Shown here: in pieces, positions 3,441-42,919 of the stretch | How the letters are laid out: each line of letters opens with the position of its first letter | How positions within the stretch are numbered: the first letter of the stretch is position 1 | NCBI GenBank assembly: GCA_947561395.2 | Contig: OX387182.1 | Location: 44,013,949 to 44,077,948, forward strand | Direction of reading: 5' to 3' | Length of the DNA stretch: 64,000 bases | Source of the DNA: Buxus sempervirens | Taxonomy: Eukaryota; Streptophyta; Magnoliopsida; Buxales; Buxaceae | Made by a program: the position numbers and the translations under genes | The notes under the pieces: generated by a model | Told to the model about the DNA's origin: nothing | What the model saw: the letters and a program-made list of their open reading frames with translations, nothing else | Databases searched by the model: none

Positions 3441-4695
3441 GCCCCATGGAGCCCCATACGTAAGGAAGGAGAGCTCATTTTGTTGGTTTCCATTTTTCTT
3501 CTCCAAGCTCTCTCCTACAAGCCCCTCTCCATCTCCAAGCTCTCTCCCATTGACCACCTCTCCCACACTTGAACCTCCTTCAATCAAACCTCTCTTGATC
3601 CCCTCCTCTTCTCTTCTTCTTCATGTGGAGCTAGGAGAAGCTTGGTGGTGAAAGGAGCAAGGGGGTGTACGGCTGCTGTCCACACCACTAAGGACCACTA
3701 CACACCTCCAACAAGGTTTCTAACCCTAAGGTGAGTCCCCTTGATGTATCTTGTTCCACATATATAAAGATGGTAGGATGATGAACATGTTTGCCATGAA
3801 ATGCTTGTTCCTTTAGTTCTAGAATGTTTTGTTGTTCTATTTCTTTTCCTACTCTTCTTCCTCTTTGAAAAGAGAAGTTCCCATGGTAAGGGGAAAGGTT
3901 CAAGCATGAAATAAGGGAGGAGGGTATTCGTGGGTCCTAAGGTCACCTTTGAAGGCTCATGCCCACGCTCCCTTCCTTGTTTATTTCTCACCATTTAAGG
4001 GAGGGTGTGTCCTCCTATCTCCATCTTGTGTACCCCGTAAAGCCCCTCATACCCCTTCTTTTAATGGTATTTTTCTTCACTTGCATGCTTGTTGTTTTGT
4101 AATGTTTATAAGACATAAAGCATGTGTGCCTAGGATAGGACCTTTTTACTTGAATGCCTTAAAGTATGATCCCTACATCCATTTTTTCCCCATAGTATTT
4201 GGGCTATTGTTTTAAGCCATCTTGCAAGATCCCATCCCCCACTTGCATGCACAAACACACACACTTAATCAACTTTTTAGCAAGTTTCTAGTCTTGAGTA
4301 TGTAGGAATGAGTTGCTGTTTTTTAGCATGTGTTTTAAATTATTTTCAGCATATATGCTTGTCCTTGCTTGAATATAGTTTGGCCGTTGAGACTTGGAGG
4401 AGGACCTTTCGGGTCCCTCACCTATCTTCTCTCATAAGGAAGGTGAGTAACCTCCACAAATAGCAAAGAGATATCTATGATCTCTTTATGTCATATGGAT
4501 TCTCATCCATGAGTGGAGGGGCAAGGCCCCAAGCCTTGTTCTCTATTGTTTTCATCCAAAAAGCAACAAAAATGGCCTGTTCAGGCTCAATGCCCCAATC
4601 CCAGACAATTGTGGGTCCACGCAGGGGCCCACACAGCCCCCAGGAAGCCCATGAAACTACCCCAATTGCAAAGGCCCGAAAAAAGGCAATTTTGA

Positions 4696-4724
4696 GGTGA
4701 TCCGACAACTCAGGTCGGATCACC
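4696..4724 (+). promoter_or_regulatory. Perfect 11-bp-stem hairpin with AACTCAG loop
   Basis: Arms GGTGATCCGAC (4696-4706) and GTCGGATCACC (4714-4724) pair perfectly around loop AACTCAG. A second GCCGAC/GTCGGC-type pair follows near 4740-4755. The equivalent position in the LTR at 18609-21825 carries a hairpin with a different stem and the same loop. Confidence 0.75.
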
Positions 4725-5844
4725 TGGGGCTTGTGTGAAGCCAACAAGTAATGTCGGCTACATGGCAGAAATGTCATTTTGGAATATCTTGTGATCCTTG
4801 CCGAATTTTTATGATACTTTCAAGCAAACCGAGCAAACCAACAGGGTTTCTGGGTCACCCGGAAACCTAACTTGGGACATGGACCACCGGTCCAATACAG
4901 TGCATTAGTGGGCCTTCCAACAGGGCCCACCAAGTCCAATGAACCCTTTTGTGCATATAAATAAACAAGATAAGCTAATTAACCAACCCAGCCAGGTGGG
5001 CCAAACCCAATGCGGCCCACCCGAAACTGTTTTGTGAAATGGCATGTTTGAATTGTATGGTTTGGCCGAGACCCAGGGCTAGGGCCTATCGGGCCCGCCA
5101 AAGCCCACCAATCAACCAAGTGAGGGTTCAAAGCCCTAAACTCCAAGAACTTGGGCTTTCAAGCCTAAATTTGGACCATGGTCCCCAAGCCCTATGTCCA
5201 AATCACTTTTGCAAATTAACCAAGATAATCTAAAAATATTTTGGCTACCGCCATGGGGGCCCACCAAGGGGCCCGCAAACCATTGCAGGCTCACTTGTTG
5301 CATGAAAATCACATAAGTCTCCAACTTAAATAAACTAAGTAAAATCAATTCATTTCACCTAAGCCCACAGGGCCTCTCAGTTTAGACTGAGGCCCACCAA
5401 GGGATTCGTGGGCTTAACCAAGCCCACCAGGGACACAAGGGGCCTTCCAATGGGGCCCACCCTAGCAGACTCAGATCATTTAAAACAAACAAGATAAAAT
5501 CAATTAAAGGAACCCACACCACTCAGGCGGTCCCGCCAGACTGAACCGAATGGCATGCTGTACTAGGAATCGGGTGAGAACCAAAAGTGAGTTGACTCAA
5601 ACCAGGGAACCCACGGGACCCGTCATCCGACGGGGTGGACTGGGGTGTCTACGGACTTCCCCAGACCGCAACCGAGAACTTACTTAGAATCTCAAAGCCG
5701 CAGACCAAACCTTAATAGAAGAATTTAGGCACCCAGGTGTCTGCCTGCACCCCATCAGGCAGTGGTGACTCCAAACAAATCCCGAGGCATGCATCATTTT
5801 GCATGCGCCTCGTCGTGCGGTCGAAATCAGGCGCGCACAGTATG

Positions 5845-6304: not shown

Positions 6305-9157
6305 ATGGCTAGAGGCCGTTCCCATGTTCGAGAGGAGGCTGACCCTGCTGACCAGCCCTCCACTTCACGGGCTCGGACAGAGGCGAGTTCTAGTGCTACC
6401 CTGTTGGAGCCGCTAGATGATTCCAGAGAGAGCTCTGGAGAGGGCTCTGCTGAGGTAGGCTTCCTAATTTTTCTTTTCCCTCCTTCTATTCTCTTTCTAC
6501 ACAAACCTTCACATTTCTCTTTTGAATTTTAGCCCGTTGTTGCTCCTGCTCGAGGTCGGGGCAGAGGCCGAGGTAGAGTTGGAGAGAGGGGCCGAGGTCG
6601 AGCCAGAGAGAGGGGCCGAGGCCGAGCCGGAGCTTCGGGTCAGGAGGGTGTTGTTTCAGCTTTCTGCCTAGGGATCTCCGCGGAGTTGAGAGCATCTGTT
6701 CATGATACAGAGCTCCTTAGTTGCTTGGATAGCCACCCCTCCATGTGCATCCGTGCTGATGTTCCACTCCCGTATCCTCCCTCCCATCTATGAGGCAGTT
6801 GGGGGAGGTTCAGTGAGTTGGCTCAGACGCTTTCTCCGGCACTCAGGCGCGAGTTTAGTAGGTGTTGCCTCGATTATTTTCTCCGTATCCCCACATTTCG
6901 AGTTGACCGCCCCCTTATCTTTGCCATGATGGAGTGATACTTCCCGAAGACGCAGTCCTTTCATCTGCTGGACATGGAGCTTGGGATCCGTCCCTCCGAT
7001 TTTGTCATGATCATCGGCATTCCTTTGGTGGGGCGGACTATAGTGTTGGACCGGCCTTCAGCTGCGGATATCAGCCTTCTCTTGGGATATGAGGACTTGC
7101 CTGATGGTATTTGGGATGGGAGGAGCGGCCATGTCTCCATCAGCTGGCTACGAGAGAGCCTCACTCGGCACTTCAATGGGAGGCATGCGACCATTACCGG
7201 GGAGGACGTGGCTTTTGCTCCTATATTCCGGCATGTATTCTTGCTGATGCTTGGGAGTTGCTTTTTCCAGGAGGACATGACCAGTGTTAGTCCTCTCTTT
7301 TTGGATGCTCTAAAAGATCTCCGCCAGACCCGGCAGTTAGCATGGGGTCGGCTTATATATGGGACCATCTTGGCCGGATTATGCCGAGTGGTTCGAGGCT
7401 TGGCCGCTCCGAGGGGCGATGGTGTTAGTTGCCAGTTCTTCTAGCAGATCCTGCAAGTACTGGGTTCATCTGCTTTGTCTCACCCACCCAAAATTTATCT
7501 TTTTTATCCTTAACCGATTCCTCTTTTGCCAGGTATTTATGTATACCTATATGACCTACTTCCGCCCTTCCCCCGTGCCTAGTGTTGCGGAGTTCCCCGT
7601 TGCTATGCGGTGGTCTGTCATGGATAGAGATGCAAACAGGAGCCAGCCCCGCACTGCTTGGGTTCATTTGGATTGTGCCTCTGATGTAAAATTCTTCGCC
7701 CCTTTCTCTTTTGTCTCTTTTCCTGTACCTTGTTTGTATCTGACAACATTTTTCTTCTTTGTAGCTCCTACTAGCACGCTTTGATGATGTGGATATCGGG
7801 GTCACCCGTGAGATGATAGTACAGGACGCTTTTAAGCGAGACCTCCGATGTCAACCTTACCAGTGCTTCCTTGGAAGGCTTTGTAGGGTGATGTATCTAG
7901 GAGAGTGCCTGTACTATCAGCACATAGGTGTACCTCGTATCCTAGTTCCTCCTCCTCCTGTGGGTCCCAACACGCTCCTCCCCGAGTTTGATATTGATCA
8001 GTATCAGGATGCAGAGGGGCTTATAGTAGTTGGGGATTATGACGAGTGGATCAGGAGGGTGTCCATTGGATGCCTGATGGATCGACCCACTCATGCGGGA
8101 GTGATAGAGATCGGTGGGATCTATATTCGAGTTCACGACGATACTGTAAGTCACCTTCTCTTATCTCATTTCCTTTAATTCAGCATACATGATTCTAATT
8201 CCGCTCTTATTGGCAGGTGGATGAGCTGAATGCTCTGTGGGACCAGTTCCAGAGCTAGCAGGCCGCAGTCGATGATATGATTGCCGAGCACGATGCGATC
8301 GTGGCCAAGAGAGATGCCCGGATCAGAGAGCTGGAGGCTTTGGTTGCTGAGCTTAGGGCTAGCCAGGTATCTAGTTCTTTATAACTCCATATCTTTCATT
8401 TCTATGTTCCTCTGTTGTTCTGATATGAACTGTTTTTACTTTTATAGGGTCCAGTCCCAGATCATGGTATTGCCTTCGAGCCAGATCCTCCTGTTCCTGA
8501 TCCATCTCCGGTTCAGACTGCTGACCCCGAGGACACCCCAGCTGCTGACTCGGTTGTAGCTCCTGTTCTTGCTACTCCTGCGGACCCTGTGGGCCTCTCA
8601 TCTCCTATGAGGGCTCCTGATCCTGAGGACATCCCGGTCGCCGACCCGGTTGTATCACTTGTTTCTGCTGCTCCTGCAGATCCTGCAGGCACCTCATCTC
8701 CTGTGGCGGCTCCTGCTCCTGCTCCTGAGGTCCCTAGTAAGTTTTCTTCAGTTTTACCTCCTCGGTTCATTTTGGTATTTCAATTTCTGACCTTATTTCC
8801 ATTAATCCAGATATTTCTGTTCCTGATCCTCCTCCTGCTACTACCGAGACTTCTGGAGCTGTAGGAGTCGAGATTGCTGCGGTTGAGGACCCAGTTAAGC
8901 CTGAGGCGGCTATCCTTCCAGCCCAGCCTGCTTCTGCTGAGCCTGAGGCTTCCTCATCAAATTCTGTTCCTACAGGCCCACCTCCTGACAATTCAGCCTA
9001 CTGCCTTGAGTATCAGATTCAGTCCTATCTAGGCCGGAGACCACGCTATCTTGCCGAGCGCATTATCTCGCATGTCTTTAGGTGTCAACCATCTCGAGGA
9101 AGAGGCCGCAGAGGAGGACGTGGCAGAGGACGTGGGGATGATCTCGCACAAGAGTAG
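6305..9157 (+). pseudogene. Degenerate multi-exon gene with plant mobile domain (PMD)
   Basis: Seven exons can be traced with GT-AG borders: 6305-6454, 6533 to about 7480, 7533-7685, 7765-8145, 8217-8366, 8448-8736 and 8811-9157. The product starts MARGRSH, then has an Arg/Gly-rich basic stretch (6540-6640). Next comes a region like the plant mobile domain (aminotransferase-like PMD family): YFPKTQSFHLLDMELGIRPS near 6940, then GIPLVGRTI and WGRLIYGTILAGLCR. A charged coiled-coil-like exon, a Pro/Ala/Asp repeat exon and a Gly/Arg-rich tail (RGRGRRGGRGRGRG) follow. Stops at about 6792, 6939 and 8255 break it; the one near 6939 looks like Trp TGG to TGA. PMD proteins occur as host factors and as passengers of plant transposons. 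It lies antisense to Tat#1, beyond its integrase. The role is unknown; a captured host gene or element-borne antisense ORF is likely. Confidence 0.7.
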
Positions 9158-9360
9158 TAGATTAGGATTTTTGTACAGTTTGCATTATCCTTGTACTATT
9201 GAAACTTGCATATATATTAAAAAAAGTTTTTATTCTTGTTCTCTCTTATCTTGCTCTCTTTTTCTTCTCATTTTTATGCAATGTAAACTTGTATACAGGT
9301 GAAACAGGTAAAAAATTCGGATTTTTCTTCCTTTGCTCTTTTTTTTTTGGGCCTTTTTCC

Positions 9361-9505
9361 TTGTATCTGATATATCAGATCGGATACACTGATATTTTTT
9401 TGTATCCGGCATATTATATCGGATACACATAGTTTCTCTTGTATCCGACATTTTTCATCGGATATGAAGGGAACCTCTTGTATCCAATCTGATATATCGG
9501 ATACA
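9361..9505 (+). promoter_or_regulatory. Hairpin cluster between the two antisense genes
   Basis: Four consecutive inverted repeats of the TTGTATCCGGC / GGATACA class, for example TTGTATCCGACA with TCATCGGATA. A TATA box follows 11 bases later. The same arrangement is found in several LTRs and in the Tat#2 leader. Confidence 0.7.
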
Positions 9506-9516
9506 TTAAAACATGC

Positions 9517-9523
9517 TATAAAT
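9517..9523 (+). promoter_or_regulatory. TATA box for the DUF7745-like gene
   Basis: TATAAAT in the context ATGCTATAAATGCAACTGG, directly after the hairpin cluster and about 250 bases before the first ATG at 9771. Position and context support a promoter; transcription is untested. Confidence 0.5.
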
Positions 9524-9770
9524 GCAACTGGCATTGGGATTTGAGTCATTTTTACGACTTTTTGAGTTTAGAAAACACATTTTTCGCCTTTTCTTCCTCC
9601 CATTGATTCTTAGCATGCTCCAACCATCTCCAATGACTTCCAGATCATCCTCTGTCCCATTATTGTCTGTCAACGCAGCCTCCCCTGCAAAATAACCTTT
9701 TAGAGCAAAATCCCCTAACCTCACTAGGTACAACCCTGTAGATTCATTCTACACTAGGTGGGTTAACTCT

Positions 9771-11304
9771 ATGACCCTTGATGAAGAGAGGAAATGGGAT
9801 TCCACTCATCTAGGTCACGTCCTGCTTATACCCAAGATACCTTTCAAATGGGAAATTATTGAAGCCATGATTGGCCACTGGGTACCTGATCTGAACCTTT
9901 TTCGTTTTGGAGACAATGAGATGACTCCAACCATTGAAGAGGTTGAAACCATCCTGGGCTTGAGGTTTGCAGAGAAGGTAGTGAACCCACCCATTAAGCC
10001 TAGCTACAAGAAAGAGGCTTCCACCTTTCTAGGTATAGGAAAGAAGAATTTAGGGGATTCTGACACCCTTTTTGACTTTATTCAAGTCTTTTTTTGACTG
10101 GGAAGCTCTTGAGGGGGGAAAACAAGGAAGCCAGGTTCAATGCCCTAACTCTGATAGTGGTTAACCAACTGCTTTTTCCGCGGGATGACGATGAAGTCGA
10201 CTTAGCCCTTATCTCACTTGTATGTCAGGTTAGGGAGCAAGAGAGATTGGCCCCTATGATTTTGGCAGGGATGTACCAGACTTTGACTGACTGTTATCAC
10301 AGGAAGAAGAAGCGCTTCCTGTCATGTGCCCCTATCCTGCAGGTAAAATTCCCCTTTTTTTCTTTTGCTTTTTTCTTTACAATATATTGAAATATATCTC
10401 CTCTTCTGCAGCTTTGGTTACTTGACCACCTGAGTTAAATTGAGGAGATCAATCGGCACTTCTTTCCATGCCTGAAGGTTCCAATCTTGATGAGCAACCG
10501 GGGGTGCCTTGACATCCCGGGAGGCAAACAGGGTTGGTTAATTTCTTGGCTACACTCCAGGATGATCAGGTGAGGTGGCCTGGCACTTATCAACCCAATG
10601 CAGAGACAGTGATCAGCTTCAAAGATAGAAACTTTTTGGTTCTAGCAGGCCTGAGATATGCTGTACTCTACCTTCCCTTGTGAGTTCTTCGGCAGTTCAG
10701 AGCGATCCAGGGGATTATAATCCCAAGTGGATACGAGGACCATCTTGGGCCACTTTCACCAACCACCATGAAGCTGAACGCTTGGTTGATGAGGGAGTGG
10801 TCCTATATTCGTTTCATGCGGAGCCAAGTTTTCTCAGAGTCCCATGTGAAGGACTACCTCTTCTGGATCAAGAAGCAGATCCAGAGTTAGGCCCCAGTAC
10901 CCGAGGATCCTCCTGTAGTTTTGGCTCCCACTTATGAAGACATCCTAGAGTCTGAGAGAACCTCTCACAAGCGACTTCAGCAGATATGGGTTCGAAAGGC
11001 CCAGGAGCTTAGGATACGAGGTGTTTATCTGAAGAGGCAGCTTGAGGAGCAAATATCTCACCATACAGCTATGGAGGAGAAACTGGAGGAGCAGCGGCAG
11101 GCTCGCCGCTTTGAGGTGCGGATGATACGGCAGAAGTACTAGGATGCTTTAACCAGCCTTAGGAGTATGCGGATTAGATAGACCCTTTCAGATGAGGTCA
11201 TTTCCTTCTTGAGTGATCCCGCTGCAGAGGGGGCTTCTGGGGTTATTGCAGCTCAGGCAGTTCGGATTTGGGAGCTTGAAGAGCGGCTAGAGGATAGAGA
11301 CTAG
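9771..11304 (+). pseudogene. Degenerate DUF7745-like gene (PMD-related), coiled-coil tail
   Basis: The first exon (MTLDEERKWDSTHLGHVLLI...) contains HWVPDLNLFRFGDNEMTPTIEE and ILGLRF, the signature I associate with the plant DUF7745/PMD-related family. A run of T at 10087-10093 shifts the frame. The product then continues RGENKEARFNALTLIVVNQ ... MILAGMYQTLTDCYHR. A 69-base GT-AG intron (10343-10411) splits the next part (FLSCAPILQ / LWLLDHLS). The C-terminal third (from about 10920) is a charged, probably coiled-coil stretch (RQLEEQISHHTAMEEKLEEQ). Stops at about 10433, 10680, 10888, 11140 and 11178 break it. It follows the PMD gene in the same direction and is convergent with Tat#1 integrase. 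Function unknown; the family assignment is from recall. Confidence 0.6.
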
Positions 11305-18603: not shown

Positions 18604-19719
18604 CCAGGTGTGCGCGCGTCGGAAACGCGGCACAGGAAAAGTTCGGAGTCGCCACCGCCTGATGGGGTGCAGGCGGACACCTGGGTGCCTAAGTTAGTCT
18701 ATTTTGGGCTTTGGTCTGCGGCTTGAGATTCTAAGTCGGGGTCTCGGTTGTAGTTTGGGGAAGTCCGTAGACACCCCAGTCCACCCCGTCGGATGACGAG
18801 TCCCGTGGGTTCCCTGGTTTGAGTCAGCTCGTTTTGGTTTCTCACCCGATTCCTAATCCGATATGCAAATCGGTTAAGTCTTGCGGGACCACCTGAGTGG
18901 GTGTGGGTCCCTTTAGTTGATTTTATCTTGCTTAACTTTAGGTGTACTGGGTCTGATTGGATGAGCCCCATTGGAAGGCCCACGGTGCCCCTGGTGGGCT
19001 TGGTTAAGCCCACAAATCCCTTGGTGGGCCTCTGTCTAGTCCTAGGAGGCCCTTTGGGTTTAGGTTAGTTAGTTGACCTTACTTAATTGTTTAAGTTGGA
19101 CTTTTAGGTGATTTTCATGCAAAGGGGTGGGTCTGCCTTGGTTTGCGGGCCCTTGGTGGGCCCCCATGGTGGATGCCAAAGTATTTGATTTTTATCTTAC
19201 TTAAGTTTGTCAAGGCCTTTTTGGATATTGGGCTTAGGGCCCGTAGTCCAGTTTTAGGCTTGGAAGCCCAAATTCCATGAAGTTAGGGCTTGAGCCCCTC
19301 CTTGGCTTGGTTAATGGGCTTTGGCAGGCCCGGTAGGCCCTGGCCCTTGGTCTCGGCCAAACCACACAATTCATGCATTATTCCATATATCAAGGTTCGG
19401 GTGGGCCGCATTGAGCTTGGCCCGCCCAGTTTAATTGGTTGATTTGACTTAAGTTGCTTAATTGCATTCCTTTGGATTTATCGGGCTTTGTGGGCCCCGT
19501 TGGAAGGCCCACTAGTGTTTCCAATTTGGACATTGATCCAAGTCCCAAATTGGGTTCTCGGGTGGCTCGGGAACTCGGTTGGTACATCCGGTTCGATTGG
19601 GAGAGTAAGGAAGTCGCACAAAACCAAGAAAAATGGGAAAGGGGATTTTCGGCAATGTAGCTGGCTACGCTCAGGGACCAGTGTATCCGGCATCCTTGGC
19701 CGGCTACAAGCAGGTCCCT

Positions 19720-19748
19720 GTTGATCCGGCCTGAGTTGCCAGATCAAC
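19720..19748 (-). promoter_or_regulatory. Hairpin with AACTCAG loop (sense strand)
   Basis: Arms GTTGATCCGGC and GCCAGATCAAC (one mismatch) around loop CTGAGTT on the plus strand, i.e. AACTCAG on the LTR sense strand. It corresponds in position to the hairpin at 4696-4724, whose stem differs. Confidence 0.7.
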
Positions 19749-21000
19749 ACACAAAAGCTGTTTTTTTGGATTTTTCCAAGGGAGTTGGGTTTCTGAGTCT
19801 TCCAGGGGTATTCTAACAATGGTGTGGGCCCCGGGGTGGGCCCACAGTGGTTCGGACATGGGGGAGGCCCCATTTCGGCCTTCTTTTGGGACTTTCCAGT
19901 GAGGCAATGGGGGGAAGAGACATCCGAGTTGTCTCTTCCACTTGGGATCATATATACCAACATTGCAGGGACCAAGGTGTCCCTGCTTTGGTTTTTTGGA
20001 GCTCCATCACAGCACACGACAAAGGTCCATGGAGAACCCTTCGAATCAAGAACTTAAGGCATGCTCCCAGGATAGACCAAAGCATGCATGCTTACTACTT
20101 TAATCCTGGGTACAGCTACTGCATGGGGGGATTAACATGCTTAACATGTAGGCATGCAAGAAGATAATTTAACATGCATAAATACGAATGTAACTAAGTA
20201 AGCCTAGCACTTGTCACCAACAATCAGAAGAAGATCCACACAGCATGCAAGAGATAAAGAAATCAGCAAAGCAAAACCCAATACATGCGAGAAGGCCGGT
20301 GAGATGAACCGTGATCTAACATGCATTTCGTCCACCTCTTAGCAACGTCTAAACCCAAGACTTTATACTTAAACCCACAAAAATGTAGAGAAGGGTGAGA
20401 GAAGGGGGTTTATATAGGGATACATTAGACGTGTCTTGCAGGAGGGAACCTGCTCCCTTCGTTGAGTAACCGAGGCCCTCAAAACAGCACACTTGGTGGC
20501 TTAGAATGGGACAACAAGGCTTCTCATTCTATTAGAAAATCATGCATGGGGGCTCCCTTGCCCTTGAAGACCACTATATTACCAAGCCATGGAAGAAAAT
20601 GCATACAAAGAAACGCTAACACAGCCATACAGCAGTGGGAGATTAGATTCCTTGAACTCCTTAAAAAGAACCCATTTTAATATATGTATTACCTAAAGTG
20701 ATGAGAACCTTACCTGAAGGTTCTTATGCTCTAGCACGGGGTGGAGACACCCTTTTTGAAGCCGGACAGCAGCTGGAGCTTGCCTCTCCTGGTACCAACA
20801 GCAACTACCCACCTTCTTGTTGTAGTGAATATGGAGAGGGAGAAGGAGAAGGATGGTAAGAGTGGTTTCGGATGGTGTGGAGAGGTGGTGGAAGGCAAAT
20901 GGGGTTGAAAGAAGCAAGGTTCGGAGGGGAGCAAGTGAGAGAAGAGAGCTAAAGAACAACAAAAAACCACCAGCCCCCGGAAATGAGCTGCTGTTTGCCG

Positions 21001-21266
21001 TTTATAGACAAACTTAACGTATCCGGCAACTCAGGCCGGATACACTGATCCTTCTTCATAGCCGGCCTCCATGACCAGTTACACGGGTGTCTCTTTGTAT
21101 CCGGCATTCAATGCCTGATACAAAACACAATTATGCGAAAATTTAATGCCGTCGCGAATTTGTCGGGCGATCGGCGCGAATCTCGAGCGAAAATCTCTTT
21201 GTATCCGGTATTTGAGTCCGGATATGAAGAGGAGAAAGTGTATCTGGCATACTTGATCGGATACAA
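21001..21266 (-). promoter_or_regulatory. Hairpin cluster plus TATA box of the solo LTR
   Basis: Inverted repeats of the GTATCCGGC class fill 21019-21266; the best has arms GTATCCGGC and GCCGGATAC (21019-21027, 21035-21043) with loop AACTCAG. Directly downstream on the sense strand is TATAAA (complement of 21001-21006). This fits a core promoter with the cluster immediately upstream. Confidence 0.65.
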
Positions 21267-21830
21267 ATAAAAAAATTACGGATTTGCCCCTCGACTTGAC
21301 CGATTCGACTGATTCGACCAATTTGACACCTTTGGATATCTACGGATTGGTCCCTGTGAATTTTGGATATTTAAGATTTAGTCCCTGAGATATTATGCTG
21401 CGTTGGCTGCCATGTGTGCAGTTTCTTCGCCACGTGTGCAGTTTCCGGTTTTGCTGCGTGGAAACTTCGACAGCTCATATCTCCTTCATCCGAACTCTGA
21501 TTTGAGCAAACTCAATTGCATTAAACTCGTATCGGAGTCCTCTACTCAATGACATAGGGCTAAGCACTTGGCACGGGTTCGAGGAAAAGTCAACTTTCAA
21601 CTCTCCTTCAAGTTTGACCGGCCCACAGAACCTTCATCCGGATTTCGATTCCAGCAAACTCAGTTGCGTTGGACTCGTGTCGGGATTCTCTATCCATTAA
21701 GATAAAGCAAGGTGGCCAATTATCACTGGATCAAGAGGTCAGTTTTTCACCCCTTAGGGCTTGGCTTTCTATCTAGGGTTTGCATTTTCGGCTCTTCCGG
21801 GGAGTGCAAAAATGAGGTGCTTACACCAGG

Positions 21831-22879: not shown

Positions 22880-23660
22880 TTGTTGGAATATTTTAGGGCT
22901 TCCAAAGGTCCCACAAGATTTTGGGTTTGATTGGAGAAAAGGACCAACCAAAGGATTTTCTTGGAATATTTTAGGGCTTCCAAGTGTCCCACAAAGTTTT
23001 AATTTGATTGGAGAAAAGCACCAACCAAAGGATTTTTGGAATATTTTAGGGCTTCCAAGTGTCCCACAAATTTTTGATTTGATTGGAGAAAATGACCAAC
23101 CAAAGGTTTTCTGGAATATTTTACGGCTTCCAAGTGTCCCACAAATTTTTGATTTGATTGGAGAAAATTACCAACCAAAGGTTTTTTTAGAATATTTTAG
23201 GGCTTCCAAGTGGCTCACAAATTTTTGATTTGATTGGAGAAAATGACCAACCAAAGGTTTTTTTGAAATATTTTAGAGCTTCCAAGTGTCCCAGAAAGTT
23301 TTAATTTTGATTGGAGAAAAGGACCAACCAAAGGATTTTTGGAATATTTTAGGGCTTCCATGTGTGCCACAAATTTTTGATTTGATTGGAGAAAATGACC
23401 AATCCAAGGTTTTTTTTTTGGAATATTCTAGGGCTTCCAAGTGTCCCATAAAGTTTTAATTTGATTGGAGAAAAGGACTAGCCAAAGGATTTTTGGAATA
23501 TTTTAGGGCTTCCAAGTGTCCCACAAATTTTTGATTTGATTGGAGAAAATGACCAATCAAAGGTTTTTTTCGGAATATTCTAGGGCTTCCAAGTGTCCCA
23601 CAAAGTTTTAATTTGATTGGAGAAAATGACCAACCAAAGGTTTTTTGGAATATTTTTATT
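22880..23660 (-). repeat. Tandem array of about 10 units of ~76 bp in Tat#1 leader
   Basis: Each plus-strand unit reads roughly GGAATATTTTAGGGCTTCC, then AAGTGTCCCACAAA, TTTGATTTGATTGGAGAAAA and GACCAACCAAAGG. Units begin near 22884, 22962, 23036, 23112, 23189, 23266, 23340, 23420, 23494 and 23573. The same array, reverse complemented, sits before gag in Tat#2 (42920-43710). Confidence 0.93.
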
Positions 23661-23952
23661 TTTTTTGGCTGAATTTCCTCAGTTTTCGAGTTCAAAAGTT
23701 TGATTGAAAGATGTTTGAGGTGAGTTGGTATCAAGAAATATGACACCTTGGTTCCCTTTTTATGTATCTTCTTTAAGCTTGTGGAAAGGGTAGATTTGAG
23801 TTTCAAAATTAGGTTAAAAAAAATTTTTTTTTTTGAACACTTGAATTATCTTTTCATACTCTCCTTGGGGTGCCTAAAGATTATTCACAATGTTTTAGGC
23901 ATTTTATTCTAAAAATTTGGAATGAAAAATCAATTTTCACATTTCCTGGCTG

Positions 23953-24092
23953 TATCCGACATGACATGTCGGCTAAGGCTATGCCTTATTGTATCCGATA
24001 CAAATGATCGAAACATGCATAAGCTTTTGTAACCAATGGTATATGTCGGATAAGGATATTATGTTGTTTAATCGACCTGAGTTGTCGGTTAA
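23953..24092 (-). promoter_or_regulatory. Hairpin cluster in Tat#1 leader
   Basis: Includes GTATCCGACATG with CATGTCGG (around 23955-23975) and TTAATCGAC / GTCGGTTAA (24068-24076, 24084-24092) with loop CTGAGTT, i.e. AACTCAG in sense. The TATA box that follows the equivalent cluster in Tat#2 is not preserved here. Confidence 0.6.
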
Positions 24093-25685
24093 TGCCGAAA
24101 TGGCCCCTTTTTGACTCATTTTTTCACTAGATCATGTTATTTTCATTCCCATTTAATGTTCACCTTGACTTGGCCTCTAAAAATAGTCTCCAATTGGACT
24201 TTGACACCATACTTGCAAAAATGAACAAATTCATGAGGGTACTTGTACCCTCCAAAGTTATACACCAATTCATGGATCTTGTATACTTAGTTGCCTCATA
24301 CATGGAATTTGGTTAGGATGACTTTAAAATTGAGTTGGAAACTCTTCCTAAAGGTTACACCAACCTTAGGCTATAGACACTTTTGGGAAAAATTTCATCC
24401 TAAGCATATGGACACCATGGCTTTTAATTTACATGAAGATAATAAAAAAAGAAACATGGCTTTACCTTGCCACCTTGTGTTACCTTCAATATGGTATTCA
24501 TATTATACCTTGGCCTATGAAACATGCAAATGGCCTTCCCACAATTACACCCAATTCCCTAAACGTAATTGTTTATTTTAGCTGAAAACATGTTTCTCCA
24601 CCTTTAAGCGTATGGTTTTTGGGTTTTGGCTTAATTGGCAATTTAGAACTCAAGTTTAGTGATTCTAGGAATCGAATCACAGATCCCATTGTCATCACAT
24701 CATTGACTCAAATTCCAAGGTAAATGTTTTTACTTTTGCTTTCCGAAGTATCGACCTCGGTGCGCCAAGCTACACACATTCGGGTTCAACTTCCTATAGG
24801 TAATGGGTAGGCTGTGCAAAGTGTTTAAAGTGCTCAAGTGCATTTAAAATTGAGGTGCATTCATAATGTCGAAGCCCCTTGCCACTCTTTTCGTAGCCAT
24901 GCATTCAATTTTAAGCCAAGGCATATGACATTATATTGAAAGCAAAACACAAGCAAGCAAGATAGCCAAAGCAACTAGATATGCACATAACTATTACATA
25001 CCCAAAAAGTAGCATACAAACATATTATCATATTGTACAAACAACAATTAAACCATGACAAACATGGTTGAAACCCCAAAAGTAACACCTAAATTTCTAG
25101 ATTTCATGCTCTTTAATCATGCTCAAAGTGCTTCATTTGTATCCCAAATTAAAGCCTAAAAATACAGCAACTAGACATTTTGTACAATGAGCATTTGACC
25201 GGAGAAAACATGCTTGAAAACCCCTTAAAACTTTTACTGAATTCTAGGTTTCATGGTTCTCATTTTGATATTCTAAATGCATTATTTATACCCTAAATCA
25301 AAGCCTCAAAATATAGCCACTAAACATATGGTACAAAAGTGTTTCTATTAAAGAAAGCATGCTTGAAAACCCCCAAAATTTACTTTAGATTTCCAAATTT
25401 CATGTTTTTAATTTTTTTCATGTTCAACTCATGGTATTGAAACCCAAAATAACACATGCTATCACAAAATATAGCAAAGTCATATTACAAGATGGGTTTT
25501 TCCTTTAATCACATTTTTAGACACAATCAAGCAACATACCCCATGCTTTTATCCATGTAAAATTTTTTTATCATACAAATCAGGTTTAATATTCAATATA
25601 CACAAGTAAAGTAGGAAAAATAGCAAGCATTCCAAATAAAGAAAAAGCATGAACAAATACACCAATAAAGGCTTAAATCCACAAG

Positions 25686-25705: not shown

Positions 25706-28159
25706 TGTGAGACATGGAAAAATCACCAAGGTGATTCCCTTCATCATCACACGAGCTTGACTAAATGGGAGGAGTCGCCACCATTCAATTTTAGGTGTGA
25801 ATGGACACCAAAATCATCAAAATAAGCAAAAAGGCAAATCTAGAGTAAAAATTACCCTACTTGAAAATAAAATCCAAAGATGGGTAAGGGGATTAGATTA
25901 TGAACGGGGGAAGGTGTTAGGCACCCCCACTCACCAACACAAGGTGGTTGCCAAGTGTTGTTCATGCTAAAAAATAAGAAAGCTTGCTAAAATATTCAAA
26001 AACCTTGAAAAACGATTAAACATATGTATGATACTTCCACATGAGAAATCCAATGAATTCCAGATCCTCCTTTATGTTAGTATTAGTTTTGGGATATCAT
26101 CATTAAATGGAAATCAAAGCAAAACTTGAACAAAAACCAAGTTGAGACAAATCCGGAAAATTCGGTAAAAGATAGAGTCATTTGTCTTGAAATCATTCAA
26201 ATCAAATTTAGATTGAATCAAACCAAATCCATTTGAAAGATTATGATAAATAGAAGACTCATGCCAATTTTCAATTAAATCCGGTTAAAACCCTAAGAGT
26301 TATTCTTCTTTGAAATCTACTGTTAGAAATTGGTAAAAGTAACAATTAGGCAACTTTGGAAATTCATTTAGGAAAATTGGCTCCATGTAAATCCGTGAAT
26401 TTTTGCTTGAATGAAGTCTGTAGGGCCATCTTTCAAATGAAACTAGCTTCAAACCAAACTTCATCCGGATGTGCCTTGGGTGACCTCCCAAACAGGCCCC
26501 GAGGATCACAGATTAGCCCAGAAATATGCTGTTGAGCAGTTCTAAGTAAATCTATTACCCAAGACACAAATGAAATCAAAAAATTATGAAACTAATTGGA
26601 TTTGAAAGTAGACTCATAAAGGAAGGTACAAAAACAAAAATACTCAAATCGGACTTAAAACGAACACATGGTGCTCATTCAAAGTGACAGGTTCAGCAGT
26701 TTGACCTGAACTGACCTATCAACTTCGATTGAATGGTGTCAAAAATCCACTACATAAAACTTAATGAACTTTTACAGACATGTACTAGACTGCCTCACCT
26801 TTCCCATAGCTTTAGAATCACTCCAAAATTCATCCGGATGATGAAGTTATGAGTGTCCGAAGTTAGGATATAGATGCTGTCCAGTTTTGCCATTTTTTAA
26901 GTAAAATCAATCCAAAACAGTGATTGTGTGTGTGTAATTCGTGTAATCTAAATCAAAATCATTTGAAAAAAAGTATTGAAAAACCTCTAGGAGAAAATAG
27001 GGCACGAATTTGGCTCACCATTCTCTTCGATCGAAGAGAATATGCCAAAAACCCTAAAATAGAGCAAAATGCCCAAAGCTGAGAGGTTGGACCTAGAGGT
27101 CTTCAATACTCAAGACAACTTGTTTGAAATCATTCAGAAATATCCTAGAAATGCTTGGGACTATTTATTTTAGATCTATCATAATGAAGGCAATAGATCC
27201 AAAATACAAGCCAAATCCGACAAAACGAGTGCAATATGTGCATGTGTACAAATTAACTCTTCAATCATATACATAAAAACATATAGCATTCCAAGCATGT
27301 TAATCAAAGGGGGTTCTAAAAAACCTAGGGTTCCATTCCATTCTCATTTCCCTTAGTTCTCTCTCCCCGTTTTACGGTTCCGAGATAGTCTTGGGGTACT
27401 TTGAGTATGAAACAGTTTTCACACAACAAAAGGCTATTCAAAAGGTTCTATGACTAAGGGTCAATCCCCAGTCTTGTTTCCCCTAGATCCCTCTTCACGT
27501 TTTACGGCTAGAGGGAGTCTCGAGGTACTTTGAGTAGGGGAAGGGGTTGCATACACAGAGAGAAGGTCGTTATTTTACAGAAAGGTAGAAGAAAGAGCTA
27601 ACCCTGGAATGTAAGAATAGAAAAATAAAGAGGATTTTAGGCTTACCTGGGCTTCTGGAAGCAATGCAGCAGTGGTTTCCTTCTTCACTTGGAGCTCTTC
27701 AATCTCCAACTTATGGCCATTTGCTTGAGGAGGGGCCTCCTATTTATAGGCAAAGGCTAGGGTTAGGGTTTGCATGATTCTAGACACAAAATGATGTCTA
27801 GAGTCCACCAACCTAAACCCTAAGGTTATTTCTGAGATTTCCACTTCATAAAAATGTGTAAAACAGTAAAAAAGTGAAAAACTCTCGGATTTACTCAATT
27901 TTGAGCAAAAAAGCTTGTATCTGACAACTCAGGTCGGTTACAAGTGAACATTTTTGTATCCGACATATGTTGTTGGATACACTAATATCTGCTTGTATCC
28001 GACAACTTGTGTCGGATATAAAAAAGATCTCTTTTATCCGATGACTTGTGTCGGATACAATCAAGAATGCTTAAATCTGAATTTTGTGCTGGTTACAAAG
28101 GAAAGAATGATTCTTGCCAATTATTAATCATTTTTATTGTGCAATTTGAGGTGTCTACA
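25706..28159 (-). mobile_element. 5' LTR of Tat#1 (family B, 2.45 kb)
   Basis: On the sense (minus) strand it starts TGTAGACACC at 28159 and ends GTCTCACA at 25706, next to the primer site. It contains a TATA box (27750-27741), hairpins upstream of it, and an imperfect duplication of about 130 bp (27330-27540) with GTTTTACGG and GGTACTTTGAGTA. It abuts the 3' end of the gag-only Tekay-type element. Confidence 0.88.
27741..28100 (-). promoter_or_regulatory. Core promoter of Tat#1 LTR with hairpin cluster
   Basis: The TATA box CCTATAAATA (complement of 27741-27750) lies about 165 bases downstream, in sense, of a hairpin cluster at 27914-28100. Hairpins include TATCCGACA/TGTCGGATA (27996-28004, 28010-28018) and CTTGTATCTGAC/GTCGGTTACAAG with loop AACTCAG (27914-27944). 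Confidence 0.7.
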
Positions 28160-32885: not shown

Positions 32886-34400
32886 TACCCCATTCAAAAC
32901 TGGGTTGCTGCTATAGCAATAGGACTTAAATGTTAATCTAACAAGCCTCTGCTAAACACTACTAGCTTGGAGATGGATCCATACCCCTACCTTTGCCTAC
33001 TATGCCATAATAGACTACAATAACATGTACTGACAAGACATAAAATAAATAGAAGATGAAGATCTACACTGCATCTTGCAGTACCTCATAATCAGTGGAA
33101 TTCACATCCACATAACACAGTGAGTCCTCTGCCCACTTCCAAAATACATAGGACGCAGCCTATTATTTTCAAAAATCTGATTTTTGAGCAGTTATTGACA
33201 TTACACTCCATGTATATGTCTGCAACTCAAACAAAATCATAACACATTGCGAAAACATGAGGCAAACCCATGCAATTGCAAACCAATACCATTTATCAAC
33301 AGCAAAGGGAATTTATAGCTCTACAACACAATTCATGGCTGAATATTCTTCAATTCAGCTATAGAATTCCATATATTTCCTATCACATGCATAGCCCTAA
33401 TAAAAAAACCTTATATGCTAATTAAAACCAAAAAAAAAAAAACAATGGTGAAACCAGAACTTTGTTTGCATGAAGAAACTAAGCAAATTCCATCTTTTCA
33501 AGAAAAATCTTGGCTGAACTTTGCCAGTTTTAATCCAAAATTGTCATGACCCAATTATAATCATGCATGACTTAAATCAAGCAACATATATGCTCCTAGA
33601 AACCATAAGACAAAATTGAATACCAGAATTCAGATACAAGTGGATATCTTAATAAAAATTCAGCAAGAAATCACGAAATTGATGATGCAGAACAGTAATT
33701 TTTGTCTTACAAAACATACAATTCTGCTCTGTTCTGCACAATATTTGGTATGCATATTATATATTGTTGGAAAGCCCTGCGAATCTGGGTTCTAATGCAA
33801 CAAACGGTTTGAAATTTCAATTTTTCCACGAAAAGTTATAGCCATTTTTAAAACACTGGTCTGAGTGTAATGTAATCCGAGAATTACAAAAACTGAAATT
33901 TTTATAGATATCAACTCATACAGTTTTGCAATTCAATTTATTCATGCATACATATATAAATTAGCATCTCAGATGATAAAAATTACTTTAAATACTATGG
34001 AACTTCCAGATTTAAATTTAACAAAGTAAACCCTAATATTTCAAACCCTAACACAAAAATCTGTAAACAATTGCTATAAAAATTCTGTTGGAAGGTACCA
34101 CCTACCTCAAATGCTAAATCTGAACCAAGGTAAATGAAGAACTCTACTAAATCAGCATTCTAATAGTTGCAGCACTCCTGGACAGCAACTAAAATCCCCA
34201 AATGCAAAGCTTCACAACCCCAATGGCTCCATTCTCCTTCCTTAACCAGGATCCTTCAAAATCCCACCAATTCCTTGCACTTCCTCTTCAATTTAGCTTG
34301 ATTTGAGCTGAAATTGTGATGAAGAAGAAGAGGAATCCTCCAGCCCTCTTTCCCCAATTCTATTGCATGGAGAGAACAAATGAAAATGACCCAAAGCCCC

Positions 34401-34410
34401 CCTTTTTATA
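34401..34410 (-). promoter_or_regulatory. TATA box of Tekay1 LTR
   Basis: Complement reads TATAAAAAGG followed by a G-rich run, about 610 bases into the LTR and before a leader-like stretch. The copy in the 5' remnant is also present. Confidence 0.6.
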
Positions 34411-35032
34411 CTAAACCAAAGACCCATTGACCCATCCAACCCCCTTTTTTAAGTGAACCCCTTGGTTTACTTCCAATTGAACCATTCTCTCAATGTTTTT
34501 CTTTTAACCTTAAACAATTGCCATTTAAAATCTAATTAACCAAAGATTAACCCCATTTCATTCCTCATTATTTTTTTTTTATACTAAACCATACACCTTT
34601 TAAACCCATCTTTTATGGTTTGTTTAAGTCAAACTAGTTTTATTACATAAGTAATTAATCTCTCATTAACTCTTCTTTTATTAAGCCATAAATCTTACAA
34701 TTTACATCCAAGTAATAATATAAAGAAATTTTTTTTTTATTATTATTTTTTTTTACCACACTTGGTTCAACACTCATAGTGAGTGAACCAATATAATCCA
34801 TGACTAATCTCACTTTCATTTCACCCTTAATATCAAATCAATTAAATATATTTTTCTTCACATAAACTCATAACCATACTATTATGAAACAAAAACATCC
34901 TTCCTAACAATTGAACTGCCTTACCTCCAAATGGCCTGACTTGACATACACTTTTCAATGGCCATCCTCTGCACATAAGAAAATTTAATATTAAAAACTA
35001 TTTATAGGGTCAGGGTTTCACATTCTACCCTT

Positions 35033-38007: not shown

Positions 38008-38968
38008 GTAAACAATTGCTATAAAAATTCTGTTGGAAGGTACCACCTACCTCAAATGCTAAATCTGAACCAAGGTAAATGAAGAACTCTACTAAATCAG
38101 CATTCTAATAGTTGCAGCACTCCTGGACAGCAACTAAAATCCCCAAATGCAAAGCTTCACAACCCCAATGGCTCCATTCTCCTTCCTTAACCAGGATCCT
38201 TCAAAATCCCACCAATTCCTTGCACTTCCTCTTCAATTTAGCTTGATTTGAGCTGAAATTGTGATGAAGAAGAAGAGGAATCCTCCAGCCCTCTTTCCCC
38301 AATTCTATTGCATGGAGAGAACAAATGAAAATGACCCAAAGCCCCCCTTTTTATACTAAACCAAAGACCCATTGACCCATCCAACCCCCTTTTTTAAGTG
38401 AACCCCTTGGTTTACTTCCAATTGAACCATTCTCTCAATGTTTTTCTTTTAACCTTAAACAATTGCCATTTAAAATCTAATTAACCAAAGATTAACCCCA
38501 TTTCATTCCTCATTATTTTTTTTTTATACTAAACCATACACCTTTTTAACCCATCTTTTATGGTTTGTTTAAGTCAAACAAGTTTTATTACATAAGTAAT
38601 TAATCTCTCATTAACTCTTCTTTTATTAAGCCATAAATCTTACAATTTACATCCAAGTAATAATATAAATAAATTTTTTTTTATTATTAATTTTTTTTTT
38701 ACCACACTTGGTTCAACACTCATAGTGAGTGAACCAATATAATCCATGACTAATCTCACTTTCATTTCACCCTTAATATCAAATCAATTAAATATATTTT
38801 TCTTCACATAAACTCATAACCATACTATTATGAAACAAAAACATCCTTCCTAACAATTGAACTGCCTTACCTCCAAATGGCCTGACTTGACATACACTTT
38901 TCAATGGCCATCCTCTGCACATAAGAAAATTTAATATTAAAAACTATTTATAAGGTCAGGGTTTCACA
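38008..38968 (-). repeat. 5' LTR remnant of Tekay1
   Basis: 961 bases nearly identical to 34063-35022, representing the first third of the LTR in sense. The remaining two thirds are lost in the deletion. Confidence 0.95.
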
Positions 38969-39702: not shown

Positions 39703-40457
39703 AGCTGTGCGCACCTAAATCTAGATCGCACACGGGGCGCACGTGGTGTTCGTGCGTGCCTCGGGACTTTCGGAGTCACCACTGCCTGAGAGGTGCAGGC
39801 AGACACGGTGTTTGCCCTATCCGGGTCTAAGTCTGGTCTGCGGCTTTTCAGAGTTCTAGCTAAGTCCTCGGTTACGTCCAGGGAAGCCCTAAGACACCCC
39901 GGCCCGCCCCGTCGGTTTGACGGGTCCCTCGGGTATCCCTAGTTTTTGAGTCAAGTTCACCCTTCCTAGACCAGCATACTGTTTATTGGGTTTGGCGGGG
40001 CCCTCTGAAGGTGTGGGTCCCTTTTGCTTTGATTTTATCTTTTTATTTAGTGGAGTGGGTCGGACCCGGGTCCCGTTGGAAGACCCGTGGGTTGCCATGA
40101 TTGGGCCTGGGGCCCAGTTGTGTTATTGGGTGACCCATTTGGGTATTTATTAAATTAAACTATTTACACATGCAACGGGCTTAGTGGGCTTGGAATTGGC
40201 CCATGAGCCAAGGGTTAAAGGGCCTGGGCTTGTTTATGGAAAACATGCTTGGTATAGGCCGGTCAAAATGTGGGCCACTCAGGTGGGCCCAAAGGGGGTC
40301 TTGGTGGGCCCAGTAGGGTCCAAGGTTCACAAGTGGGCTCAAAACAGCCCAAAAATTCTTAAGGGTTGATTCAGACCGGTTCGGGTTGGATTTGGGTCCA
40401 CCCGGGTCGAAAAAATGGATTTTTAAGTTACTTTTATCGAGTGACCGTATTTAATTC

Positions 40458-40504
40458 ACGGTCTGGTCAGAACCGTAAATGTAATACGGTTCAGGCCAGA
40501 CCGT
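40458..40504 (-). promoter_or_regulatory. Nested inverted repeat in A2 LTR
   Basis: Outer arms ACGGTCTGG and CCAGACCGT, inner arms AACCGTA and TACGGTT. It lies in the LTR part where the other family-A LTRs have AACTCAG-loop hairpins, but with unrelated sequence. Confidence 0.65.
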
Positions 40505-41384
40505 AGATTAACTACGGGCACGCCTTGACCGCTCTGAGTATACAGGTTTTGCCCAATTTCGCCGTTTTGTTCCGACTTCGATTGGGATCACTCCGATTGC
40601 CTCCTTGGGGTGTTCGGATGCTCCCCAGAAATTTCCAGCTTCATTACAGAAGTTTACAAGCCATGCTTTTGGCTTCAAATGCACTTTTTATCTTCTTTCA
40701 TTGTCCTATGATGGAAGGAGCTCCCATGTCCTTGATATCAATCTTGAGTTGGTCCTTGGCATGCATGTTGGTAGGATTTCTTGAGAAATGAAGGAGAAGG
40801 ATGAGTTAAGGGTACATTTAGATTGTATGAAGGGGACAAACCCCCCTTTTATTTGTAAACGAAATCAACTAGTTGACACCATGTTAGTTTATGCATTCAT
40901 GTTTGGTTTAATAAGGCTACTCTCTCTTCTTTTCCTCCATAGAGATACCCATTTTCATGGGGTTCTCATGACATGCAACAAATAGATCCAACAAGTTAGT
41001 GGCAGTATAAGAAAACGAGAAGAATTAGAATGTAGTTAAAGAAATTCACATATATGATAAAAGAGAATTTATTAAAAGAGTTACCCCACTACTACCTCCT
41101 TAATTTGGTGAAGTTGTGATTCTCCGAGAATTTCGGCAGCGTTTCCGCGTCTCCTTTGGTTTTCTAAATTGGCTTTGAAAGGGTTTTGCTAGGTTTCTTA
41201 CATTCAAAGGGAGGAAAGGCAGAGTTTGGGCAAGGTTTGGGCTTACCAGGGGTATTTTGGGTATTCTGGTGTTTGGGTATTAAGAGAGACAGGGTTTGGG
41301 CAGAGTTTCGGCATGGAAATGCTGAAGAAGGAGAGGGAGAGGGCCTAAGAGTTTGGCTTGTTGAAATGAGGGGGGTGGCCTCTT

Positions 41385-41640
41385 TATTTATAGGCAAAAT
41401 TTTCGTGCCCGTATTTGAAGTACGGGCATGCCTTGCCAGTACTTCAAGTACAGGCGTGCCTTGCCCGTAATTCAAATACGGGCAAAAAATGTACATTTCC
41501 AAATCTCGCAAAATCGGCCGTACGGGACGCGTGTCCCGCCGTACAGCGACACGTGTCCCCTTCCAGAAGCTCGCCCGTATTTGAAATACGGGCATGCCTC
41601 GCCCGTACTTCAAATACGGGTCAGCACGTTTTTTAAATGC
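41385..41640 (-). promoter_or_regulatory. A2 LTR promoter with CCCGTATTT/AAATACGGG hairpins
   Basis: TATAAATA (complement of 41385-41392) with, directly upstream in sense, several inverted repeats of the CCCGTATTTGAAATACGGG class (41405-41640), plus GGGACGCGTGTCCC. The same layout as the Tat#1 LTR but with different stem sequences. Confidence 0.7.
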
Positions 41641-42501
41641 TGGATTTGAAACACTTTATTAAATTTGATTTATTTAAAGATTTTTATCCGATTTTTTGAT
41701 TATTATATTATAAAACGAGATTCTTTTATTAAAATATTACTAAAAATAAAGATATGATTTTATTTATTTATTTAATTCATTTATTCTGCTTTTTGCTGCT
41801 GTTTTGCCACATGGGCAGCTTTCTTGAAACTTGAACCGCCCATAACTTTTCCGTCTGATGTCCGATTTCAGCAAATTTGGTGTCGTTGGAATCGGCTCGG
41901 AACCCACTATCCACTGGGATCAAATTGGGCAATTGAATTGGGGTCGAGCAAAAAGTCAACTTTCGCTCTCCCAAAAGTTTGATTGACTCATAACTTCCTC
42001 ATCTGGACTCCGATTCTAGCAAACTCAGTTGCGTTAGAACCGTGTTGAAATGCTCTTTTCAATGAGAGGAAGTTTGATGGCCAATTTTCTTTGGATCAAA
42101 AAGTCAAATTTTGGCCCCCTCAGGGTTTGACTTTTTAATTAAAATTTCATTTTTTGCATTTTTTGGGGTGCAAAAATCAGGTGCTAACACTTGGGATGAA
42201 ATTTTTCCAAAAATTGTATATAGCCTAAGGTTGATGTAACCCATAGGATGAGTTTCCAACTCAATTTAATGGTCCTCCTACCCAAAGTCCAAGCAAGAGG
42301 CAACCAAGTGTATCAAGTCCAACAACGGGTGCATAACTTTGGAGGGTACAAGCACCCTCATGAATGTATGAATTGTAGCAAGAATAATGTCCAAGCCCAA
42401 TTTGGGGCAATTTTTAGAGGCCAAGTTAAGGTGAACATCAAGTGGGAATGAAAATAACCTAATCTGGTGAAAAAAATGAGTCAAAAAGGGCCATTTCGGC
42501 A

Positions 42502-42662
42502 TTAACCGGCAACTCAGGCCGGTTAAGAACAATTCCATTCATATCCGGTATAAATTGCCAGTTACAAAGGTATATGCGTGTGTCCGGTCATTATTGCCGG
42601 ATACAATAAGACATATCCTTATCCGGCACTTAATGCCGGATACATGCAGAAAATGTATAAAT
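42502..42662 (+). promoter_or_regulatory. Hairpin cluster and TATA box in Tat#2 leader
   Basis: Hairpins TTAACCGGC/GCCGGTTAA with loop AACTCAG (42502-42526) and TATCCGGCA/TGCCGGATA (42620-42642), two weaker ones between, then TATAAAT at 42656-42662. Tat#1 has the cluster but not the TATA box. Confidence 0.65.
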
Positions 42663-42919
42663 GGGTATTTTTCAGCCCGAATTTTCAGAATAAAATGCCT
42701 AAACACTGTGGATAATCCTTAGGCACCCCAAAGAGAATATAAAAATGTTTCAACAAAATAAAAAAAAAATATATTCTTTTAGGATTAAACCTAATTTTGA
42801 AACTCAAAGAGCAAGCTAAGGTGTCATATTTTTTGATATCATTTCAATTCAAACATGTGTCAATCAAGCTTTGGAACTTCAAAACAGAGAAAATTCAACA
42901 AATTGCAAAAAAAAAAAAA

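Follow-up and report, generated by a model that had tools for sequence, protein, structure and literature searches.

A 64,000-nucleotide stretch of the Buxus sempervirens genome (assembly GCA_947561395.2, contig OX387182.1, positions 44,013,949 to 44,077,948 of the forward strand; hereafter the window) carries long terminal repeat (LTR) retrotransposons, in which gag and RT/RNase H domains were identified by a Pfam domain scan, together with short palindromes that an earlier note had described as hairpins keeping the loop AACTCAG while their arms vary. We find that these hairpins belong to larger arrays with a period of 39 bp whose other units bear other loops, a feature that goes beyond that description. 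The hairpins probably form the units from which an upstream promoter element is built; this element would act as DNA, be bound by a symmetric dimer and drive both sense and antisense promoters. This reading is carried by the anatomy, geometry and abundance of the arrays, by their link to TATA boxes and by their link to an antisense gene, all of which are read directly from the sequence. The window itself carries three TATA-linked arrays, one antisense to an LTR, one upstream of an antisense DUF7745/plant mobile domain (PMD) gene and one in sense in a leader.

The window has 13 copies of AACTCAG or its complement CTGAGTT, six of which (4707, 19731, 21028, 24077, 27926 and 42511) are flanked by complementary arms. 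The earlier note spoke of seven places, and these six match the loop-bearing hairpins that it located. The stems at 4695-4725 (12 bp), 21019-21043 and 42502-42526 (9 bp each) are perfect; those at 19719-19749, 24068-24092 and 27914-27944 contain at least one mismatch. Two relatives said to lack this loop, at 1122 and 9361, are both present. The motif exceeds chance: TATCCGRC is found 18 times in the window against an expectation of 1.66, an approximately eleven-fold excess.

The hairpin at 21019 lies in an LTR array (21018-21265) with units at 21018-21044 (AACTCAG), 21057-21083 (decayed), 21096-21122, 21200-21226 and 21239-21265, the start-to-start distances being 39, 39, 104 and 39 bp. Its TATA box, TATAAACG (20999-21006, minus strand), stands 11 bp off the palindrome edge and would place a promoter antisense to the LTR. 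This LTR (18609-21825, plus strand) has TG...CA ends and a 5-bp target duplication, CCAGG, which mark it as a solo LTR; it sits in the gag region of a minus-strand element. A second array within it (19682-19749) joins unit 19682-19708 to a unit of GATC type, 19719-19749 (CTGAGTT on the plus strand), with centres 39 bp apart, and the homologous array of another LTR (4695-4762) contains a GATC-type unit at 4695-4725 (AACTCAG) and a decayed one at 4736-4762. Four palindromes starting at 9362, 9401, 9440 and 9479 (array 9362-9505, period 39) lie 5′ of the antisense gene, with the TATA box TATAAATG (9517-9524, plus strand) 11 bp past them. The leader array (42501-42644), with units at 42501 (AACTCAG), 42540 (decayed, by eye), 42579 and 42618, is again followed after 11 bp by TATAAATG (42656-42663, plus strand), here pointing toward gag, in sense. 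A TATA box is absent at the corresponding place from the decayed leader array of the minus-strand element (23951-24094), which is homologous to 42501-42644, and at the usual distance from a four-unit array of period 39 at 27916-28059, which is 74% identical to 9360-9523. Lastly, a lone decayed unit (1122-1150) adjoins a polypyrimidine tract beyond the LTR stretch 1-937. Antisense promoters had already been proposed in the earlier note, and the placement of array and TATA box supports them as predicted promoters.

The unit is a 27-bp palindrome with a half-site of approximately TGTAKCCGRC and the full form TGTAKCCGRC-N7-GYCGGMTACA. Genome-wide counts refer to an assembly of 676,531,615 bases (676.5 Mb) in 247 contigs, in which TGTANCCGNC-N7-GNCGGNTACA has 14,442 exact places and its reversed control 0; the pattern is self-complementary, and either strand yields identical places. 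Spacers of 8 to 30 together gave 142 places (reversed control 3). The 23-base GATC-type palindrome has 598 exact copies, the reversed control none, and AACTCAG units with other arms (position 8 not G) number 4,638. For closer comparison 312,644 bases were fetched as loci L001-L068. Of these, L001-L048 were obtained via the exact GATC-type unit, so that the core and loop of that unit are biased there, with adjacent units and the LTR array of the other type unaffected by that selection. L049-L068 were hand-picked, for having a TATA promoter, from matches to CGGATACA-N0..30-TATAAA; the spacer classes, DUF7745 gene link, dN/dS values, CCG-N11-CGG counts, CGG-TATA distances and G.U/A.C counts given below are wholly or partly conditioned on that choice. 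In the fetched sequence, 179 half-site pairs have a spacer of 7, any other length between 0 and 30 being represented by 0-7 pairs, and 87 of 105 successive palindrome starts lying less than 130 bp apart follow the 39-bp period. With rows thinned for redundancy, mean pairwise identity is 0.74 for arms, 0.37 for loops and 0.34 for linkers (0.43-0.74 at arm positions outside the selection). The number of units differs among arrays and the units of one array are alike. Moreover, the variant half-sites GTAACCGAA and TAACCGGA (L042:714 and L038:3005) recur through the units of their arrays, with the spacer of 7 and the TATA box at 11 kept.

The distance to the TATA box, where there is one, is rigid. 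Arrays with two or more units number 70; in 16 of them TATA[AT]A lies within 70 b of an outer edge, always at 10-14 bp, against a background of 4.9% of 70-base stretches. Genome-wide, CGGATACA-N0..30-TATAAA has 4,457 matches and the reversed pattern 329. Among the 100 matches listed, all from contig C1, the offset is 10 or 11 bp in 84 (49 and 35, respectively), the remainder lying at 12 (2), 3 (10), 1 (3) and 21 (1). Neither the array survey nor this genome-wide search was conditioned on the offset. The 33 promoters of the fetched sequence fall into three spacer classes, namely LTR arrays (often TTAAGTT), TTAAAA..TGC arrays and leader arrays. The LTR class, as assigned by an adjoining GATC-type unit, is antisense to its LTR in 9 of 10 loci, L037 being the exception.

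Two further observations concern these promoters. Several GATC-type LTR arrays (e.g. L002, L009, L015 and L033) run on, beyond the end opposite the GATC unit, with TGGCAGAAATGCCA or near variants, a leader-promoter-like stretch without TATA that may be a promoter whose TATA was lost or which uses another start element. In addition, a second imperfect hairpin, of the CAGC(A)GCCCC...GGGGTTGGC type, occurs near the presumed start of many LTR-class promoters (past the TATA in L029-L068; on the minus strand below 20999 in the window), and its arms vary yet, by eye, seem to pair.

The array at 9362-9505 stands before an antisense DUF7745/PMD gene remnant (9633-10348, plus strand), which starts approximately 116 b past the TATA box at 9517 and whose frame is broken, related open copies being found elsewhere. 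In all six hand-picked copies of the TTAAAA..TGC promoter, a DUF7745 homologue in the correct orientation begins approximately 114-118 b after the TATA (~2.5 kb of downstream sequence was included for each; two starts extrapolated to the same residue). The six copies are 68-73% identical over the main stretch to the copy in L045, whose product matches DUF7745 (4.9e-20) and PMD (5.8e-11) in Pfam; two of the six (L049 and L054) have broken frames. Of ten pairs with 237 codons or more, nine gave a dN/dS of 0.08-0.22 and one was saturated, with frames run from stop to stop and some untranslated codons thereby included. Therefore, the gene has been selected as a protein, under purifying selection. 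Among eleven shorter pairs, of 10-84 codons, ten ranged from 0.06 to 0.70 and one was saturated. A search for protein homologues of the DUF7745 open reading frame (ORF) returned 372 candidates, none at E <= 0.001. In the 15 proteins or ORF pieces covered, the Pfam scan returned PMD, DUF7745 and retroelement domains, with no DUF1985, the domain of VANC proteins, at E <= 0.001; the nine antisense pieces of the window matched PMD/DUF7745 or nothing, TRP28 (PF04195) not being among the matches. Separately, a second PMD-like stretch (6938-7441; Pfam PMD 5.5e-06, below the cut-off) lies antisense to pol and closer to the LTR than the DUF7745 gene does, and an antisense promoter in the 3′ LTR would point toward it.

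A simpler geometry is common to these sites. Within the fetched sequence CCG-N11-CGG has 299 occurrences, mostly copies of the motif described above; other spacings up to 39 have 12-70 each, apart from 161 at 37, which probably reflects an array distance. A TATA follows after 15-16 b at 27 of 587 paired CGG and at 8 of 4,640 unpaired CGG, in a sample partly selected for TATA. A second motif family, GCCCGTA-N7-TACGGGC with a period of 28 (41407-41483), keeps both CCG-N11-CGG and CGG-N16-TATA there; it lies in a different LTR, and its antisense TATA is at about 41392. Palindromes of this family were noted at 41407-41483, 41574-41620 and 40444-40513 in the 5′ LTR of the plus-strand element. GCCCGTA/ACCGTA-N7-TACGG with a period of 28 occurs at 41407-41483 and near 40444 in the window, and also in L031, L036 and L044; CGG-N16-TATA accompanies it at two loci (window 41407 and L044:25). 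In the divergent L045 element, moreover, the stretch before the DUF7745 gene has AACCG-type pairs with an 11-base gap (partly by eye). The two periods, 39 (14 + 25) and 28 (14 + 14), differ by approximately one helical turn, which would fit sites on the same face of the DNA and would not be needed for RNA hairpins. Sites of the Gal4-type fungal zinc-cluster proteins (Zn2Cys6) are CGG-N11-CCG and are bound by a dimer. The CGG triplets and the 11-bp gap are alike here, but the triplets are reversed and the flanking bases are specific; the Gal4-type order is unpeaked, with 46 occurrences against the 299.

We propose a mechanism in which a symmetric protein dimer would bind each everted repeat CCG-N11-CGG, with specificity from the flanking bases, and in which the array of 39-bp period, where it has a TATA box, would activate a promoter whose box lies 15-16 bp past the last CGG. 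The element would thereby drive the antisense promoters of the LTR and of the DUF7745/PMD gene as well as the sense promoter of the leader. The earlier note offered two readings, selection on structure and recognition of a palindrome by a protein. We prefer the latter, given a conserved half-site, a spacer fixed in length and free in its letters, the 39-bp period, a TATA distance that is fixed where a TATA is present, and loops in both orientations. As to the protein, the DUF7745/PMD product is the leading candidate, and an economical one because the site stands ahead of its gene; our guess, at a little short of even confidence, is that it is the trans factor, a host factor otherwise. The fuller version, in which the retrotransposon runs a circuit of its own, an antisense-encoded DUF7745/PMD dimer binding TATA-phased palindromes and controlling its own gene together with the LTR antisense and leader promoters, while the half-site shifts by lineage and the geometry stays fixed, is more tentative and less likely than not.

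One alternative, in effect a branch of this reading, keeps the DNA site and assigns it to a transcription or silencing factor of the host. LTRs are common targets of host factors, and position alone ties the motif to the element's protein. However, half-sites are uniform within an array and differ between element lineages, which looks like co-evolution with a changing partner. We regard a host binder as nearly an even prospect, and it is compatible with the explanation given above. The 'DOWN' motif of MAIN/MAIL1 was considered as the site and rejected, since CATGCAGTTT, as printed for MORC1 in the portion of the source available (PMC9899485), is unlike TGTAKCCGRC when compared by eye.

A second alternative, which we consider improbable, is that the palindromes work as RNA stem-loops or extruded DNA cruciforms, with AACTCAG as the ligand and a stem that need only pair. 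It is here that the covariation between arms bears. The arms had been said to differ and still pair; in fact their sequence is mostly conserved, and paired change is confined to some positions (1, 6 and, in the LTR unit, 10). Mutual information at position 1 is 0.31-0.32 within a unit against 0.15-0.18 between units, and at position 6 it is 0.50-0.54 against 0.19-0.38. Position 2 (A or G) agrees within a unit in 56 and 57 of 68 cases and between neighbouring units in 53-58, and therefore reflects an array-wide state rather than stem pairing. In the GATC-type LTR unit (80 distinct of 100 strings among the matches listed, from 819 copies), positions 10, 11 and 12 pair in 67, 70 and 34 of the 80 against 27.5, 50.4 and 22.4 expected, position 10 with three pair types (CG, TA and GC), whilst positions 13 and 14 show no excess in the same copies (17 against 14.9 and 30 against 31.3 expected). 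A tree of the flanks was built from 43 of 49 unit rows, after removal of six truncated by a locus end, and 18 of its 40 inner branches are weak. On this tree position 10 requires 10 changes on the left, 10 on the right and 12 jointly. Simulated independent change gave a joint mean of 17.7 at rate 1, reached 12 in only one of 350 accepted runs and gave pairing in 39 of 43 rows in none. Joint counts at positions 11 and 12 were ordinary, and the observed pairing was seldom simulated (4/891 and 8/305, respectively). The covariation anticipated in the earlier note thus exists at position 10 after correction for phylogeny and fails at position 2; selection on structure retains that support but fits worse than a protein site.

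The loop speaks both ways. It is steady in the GATC-type unit, where the four copies lacking the exact seed have AACTCAG (three) or AACTCAA (one), which favours the stem-loop reading. In contrast, TGTA-type units mostly carry other loops, AACTCAG being found in 10 of 154 unique units (counting only units in which each arm kept 6 of the 8 letters fixed in the TGTA type, so that GATC units mostly fell outside) and in 13 of 50 among the matches listed for TGTANCCGNC-N7-GNCGGNTACA. Wherever a window array contains an AACTCAG unit, that unit stands at its end, and the remaining units have different loops. Furthermore, the loop occurs in either orientation, the spacer is rigid at 7, and TATA-linked arrays sit upstream of the box. 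With three sense-class promoters set apart and duplicates dropped, G.U and A.C pairs number 19 and 24 at positions 1-8, giving no wobble preference, though positions 9-10 give 29 against 1, traced mostly to one shared end variant. A DNA site is therefore favoured over RNA on account of the orientation-free loops, the rigid spacing, the location upstream of TATA and the lack of G.U preference at positions 1-8. Very improbable is the idea that pairing is not selected and that the arrays are recently amplified tandem duplications whose symmetry was restored by template switching or arm-to-arm correction in reverse transcription: unit number varies, units within an array resemble each other and in some outer arms the palindrome extends to 14 bp, but loops and linkers have drifted far beyond the arms in the identities given above, spacer and TATA distance are rigid, and ordinary units have no extra symmetry past position 10.

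Several findings weigh against the promoter element bound by a symmetric dimer. The symmetric change at the freely variable positions 10-12 of the GATC-type unit exceeds what a sequence-specific dimer needs; this paired change is genuine and is not fully explained by the reading that we favour. No TATA lies within 70 b in 54 of the 70 arrays, most notably the LTR array of GATC type. Only position connects the site with the DUF7745 protein. With the known arm types excluded, CCG-N11-CGG falls to 51 and no longer stands out (54 at N24; 37 at both N7 and N12), and its generality therefore rests on few loci. Moreover, the second family has no TATA at the distance of CGG-N16-TATA in the window near 40444, in both L036 clusters, at L044:874 or in L031.

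Other features of the window were noted. The leaders of both large elements carry 76-bp tandem repeats (22880-23719 and 42880-43670; at least 10-11 copies) between palindrome array and gag. Direct repeats at 34063-35022 and 38008-38968 are 99.3% identical, flank an 879-codon minus-strand open frame and look like a young LTR pair. Only approximately 1.4 kb (938-2334), including a polypyrimidine tract at ~980-1085, separates two same-strand LTR-like stretches, which suggests a short non-autonomous element or a recombinant.

Palindromes and short tandem repeats form the BI and BII boxes in the promoter of the plant retrotransposon Tnt1, which differs in being a Copia element and in sequence; we know of no 39-bp array or antisense gene in it. 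VANDALs, the targets of the Arabidopsis anti-silencing protein VANC, which binds its motif and removes DNA methylation, are DNA transposons. Arrayed noncoding motifs that diverge together are found here as in VANC targets. Human T-cell leukaemia virus type 1 (HTLV-1) has Tax-responsive 21-bp repeats and resembles the present elements in having repeated sites 5′ of an LTR TATA, sense and antisense promoters and an antisense gene, but host, protein and motif differ and the trans-activator here is only a candidate. According to the available portions of the sources, the HTLV-1 antisense promoter lies in the 3′ LTR (PMC7264820, PMC10186651), and the units within a repeat of VANC targets evolve together (PMC5735166). 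The short motif arrays of VANDALs are likewise linked to an element, noncoding and divergent jointly within an array and between families (PMC5735166, PMC10398659). However, the VANC21 motif YAGTATTAY is arrayed in one orientation and 'palindrom' is absent from both texts as available (PMC5735166, PMC10398659), in contrast to the everted repeats of the present LTR element, in which the spacer and the distance to TATA are fixed and for which protein binding is proposed. Among LTR retrotransposons, gene23 of Grande is transcribed from a promoter upstream of the gene, and for the antisense ORFs of Retand, Grande and RIRE2 the parts available mention TRP28 but no palindromic promoter element (PMC11963269, PMC7264820); the gene here is DUF7745/PMD. 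Recently active Retand elements in a survey have LTRs of 315-1,194 bp (PMC11963269, as available), and the LTR at 18609-21825, at ~3.2 kb, lies outside that range. Among the matches listed in the literature on LTR palindromes, plant LTR antisense genes, VANC and PMD, covered as titles and abstract openings with subscription journals mostly outside, no description of a comparable palindromic promoter element was found.

For the antisense genes of plant LTR retrotransposons, a regulatory role has only been suggested in the available portions of the sources (PMC7264820, PMC11963269). A rigid site shared by the antisense gene, the LTR antisense promoter and the leader promoter provides a concrete cis element plus a candidate protein. 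It also explains thousands of palindromes that annotation could mistake for hairpins or siRNA precursors, and it suggests that private regulatory codes may be diversified by retrotransposons as they are by VANDALs. If true, the self-run circuit would place a counterpart of VANC or Tax in a retrotransposon and would give the antisense ORFs of such elements their first role.
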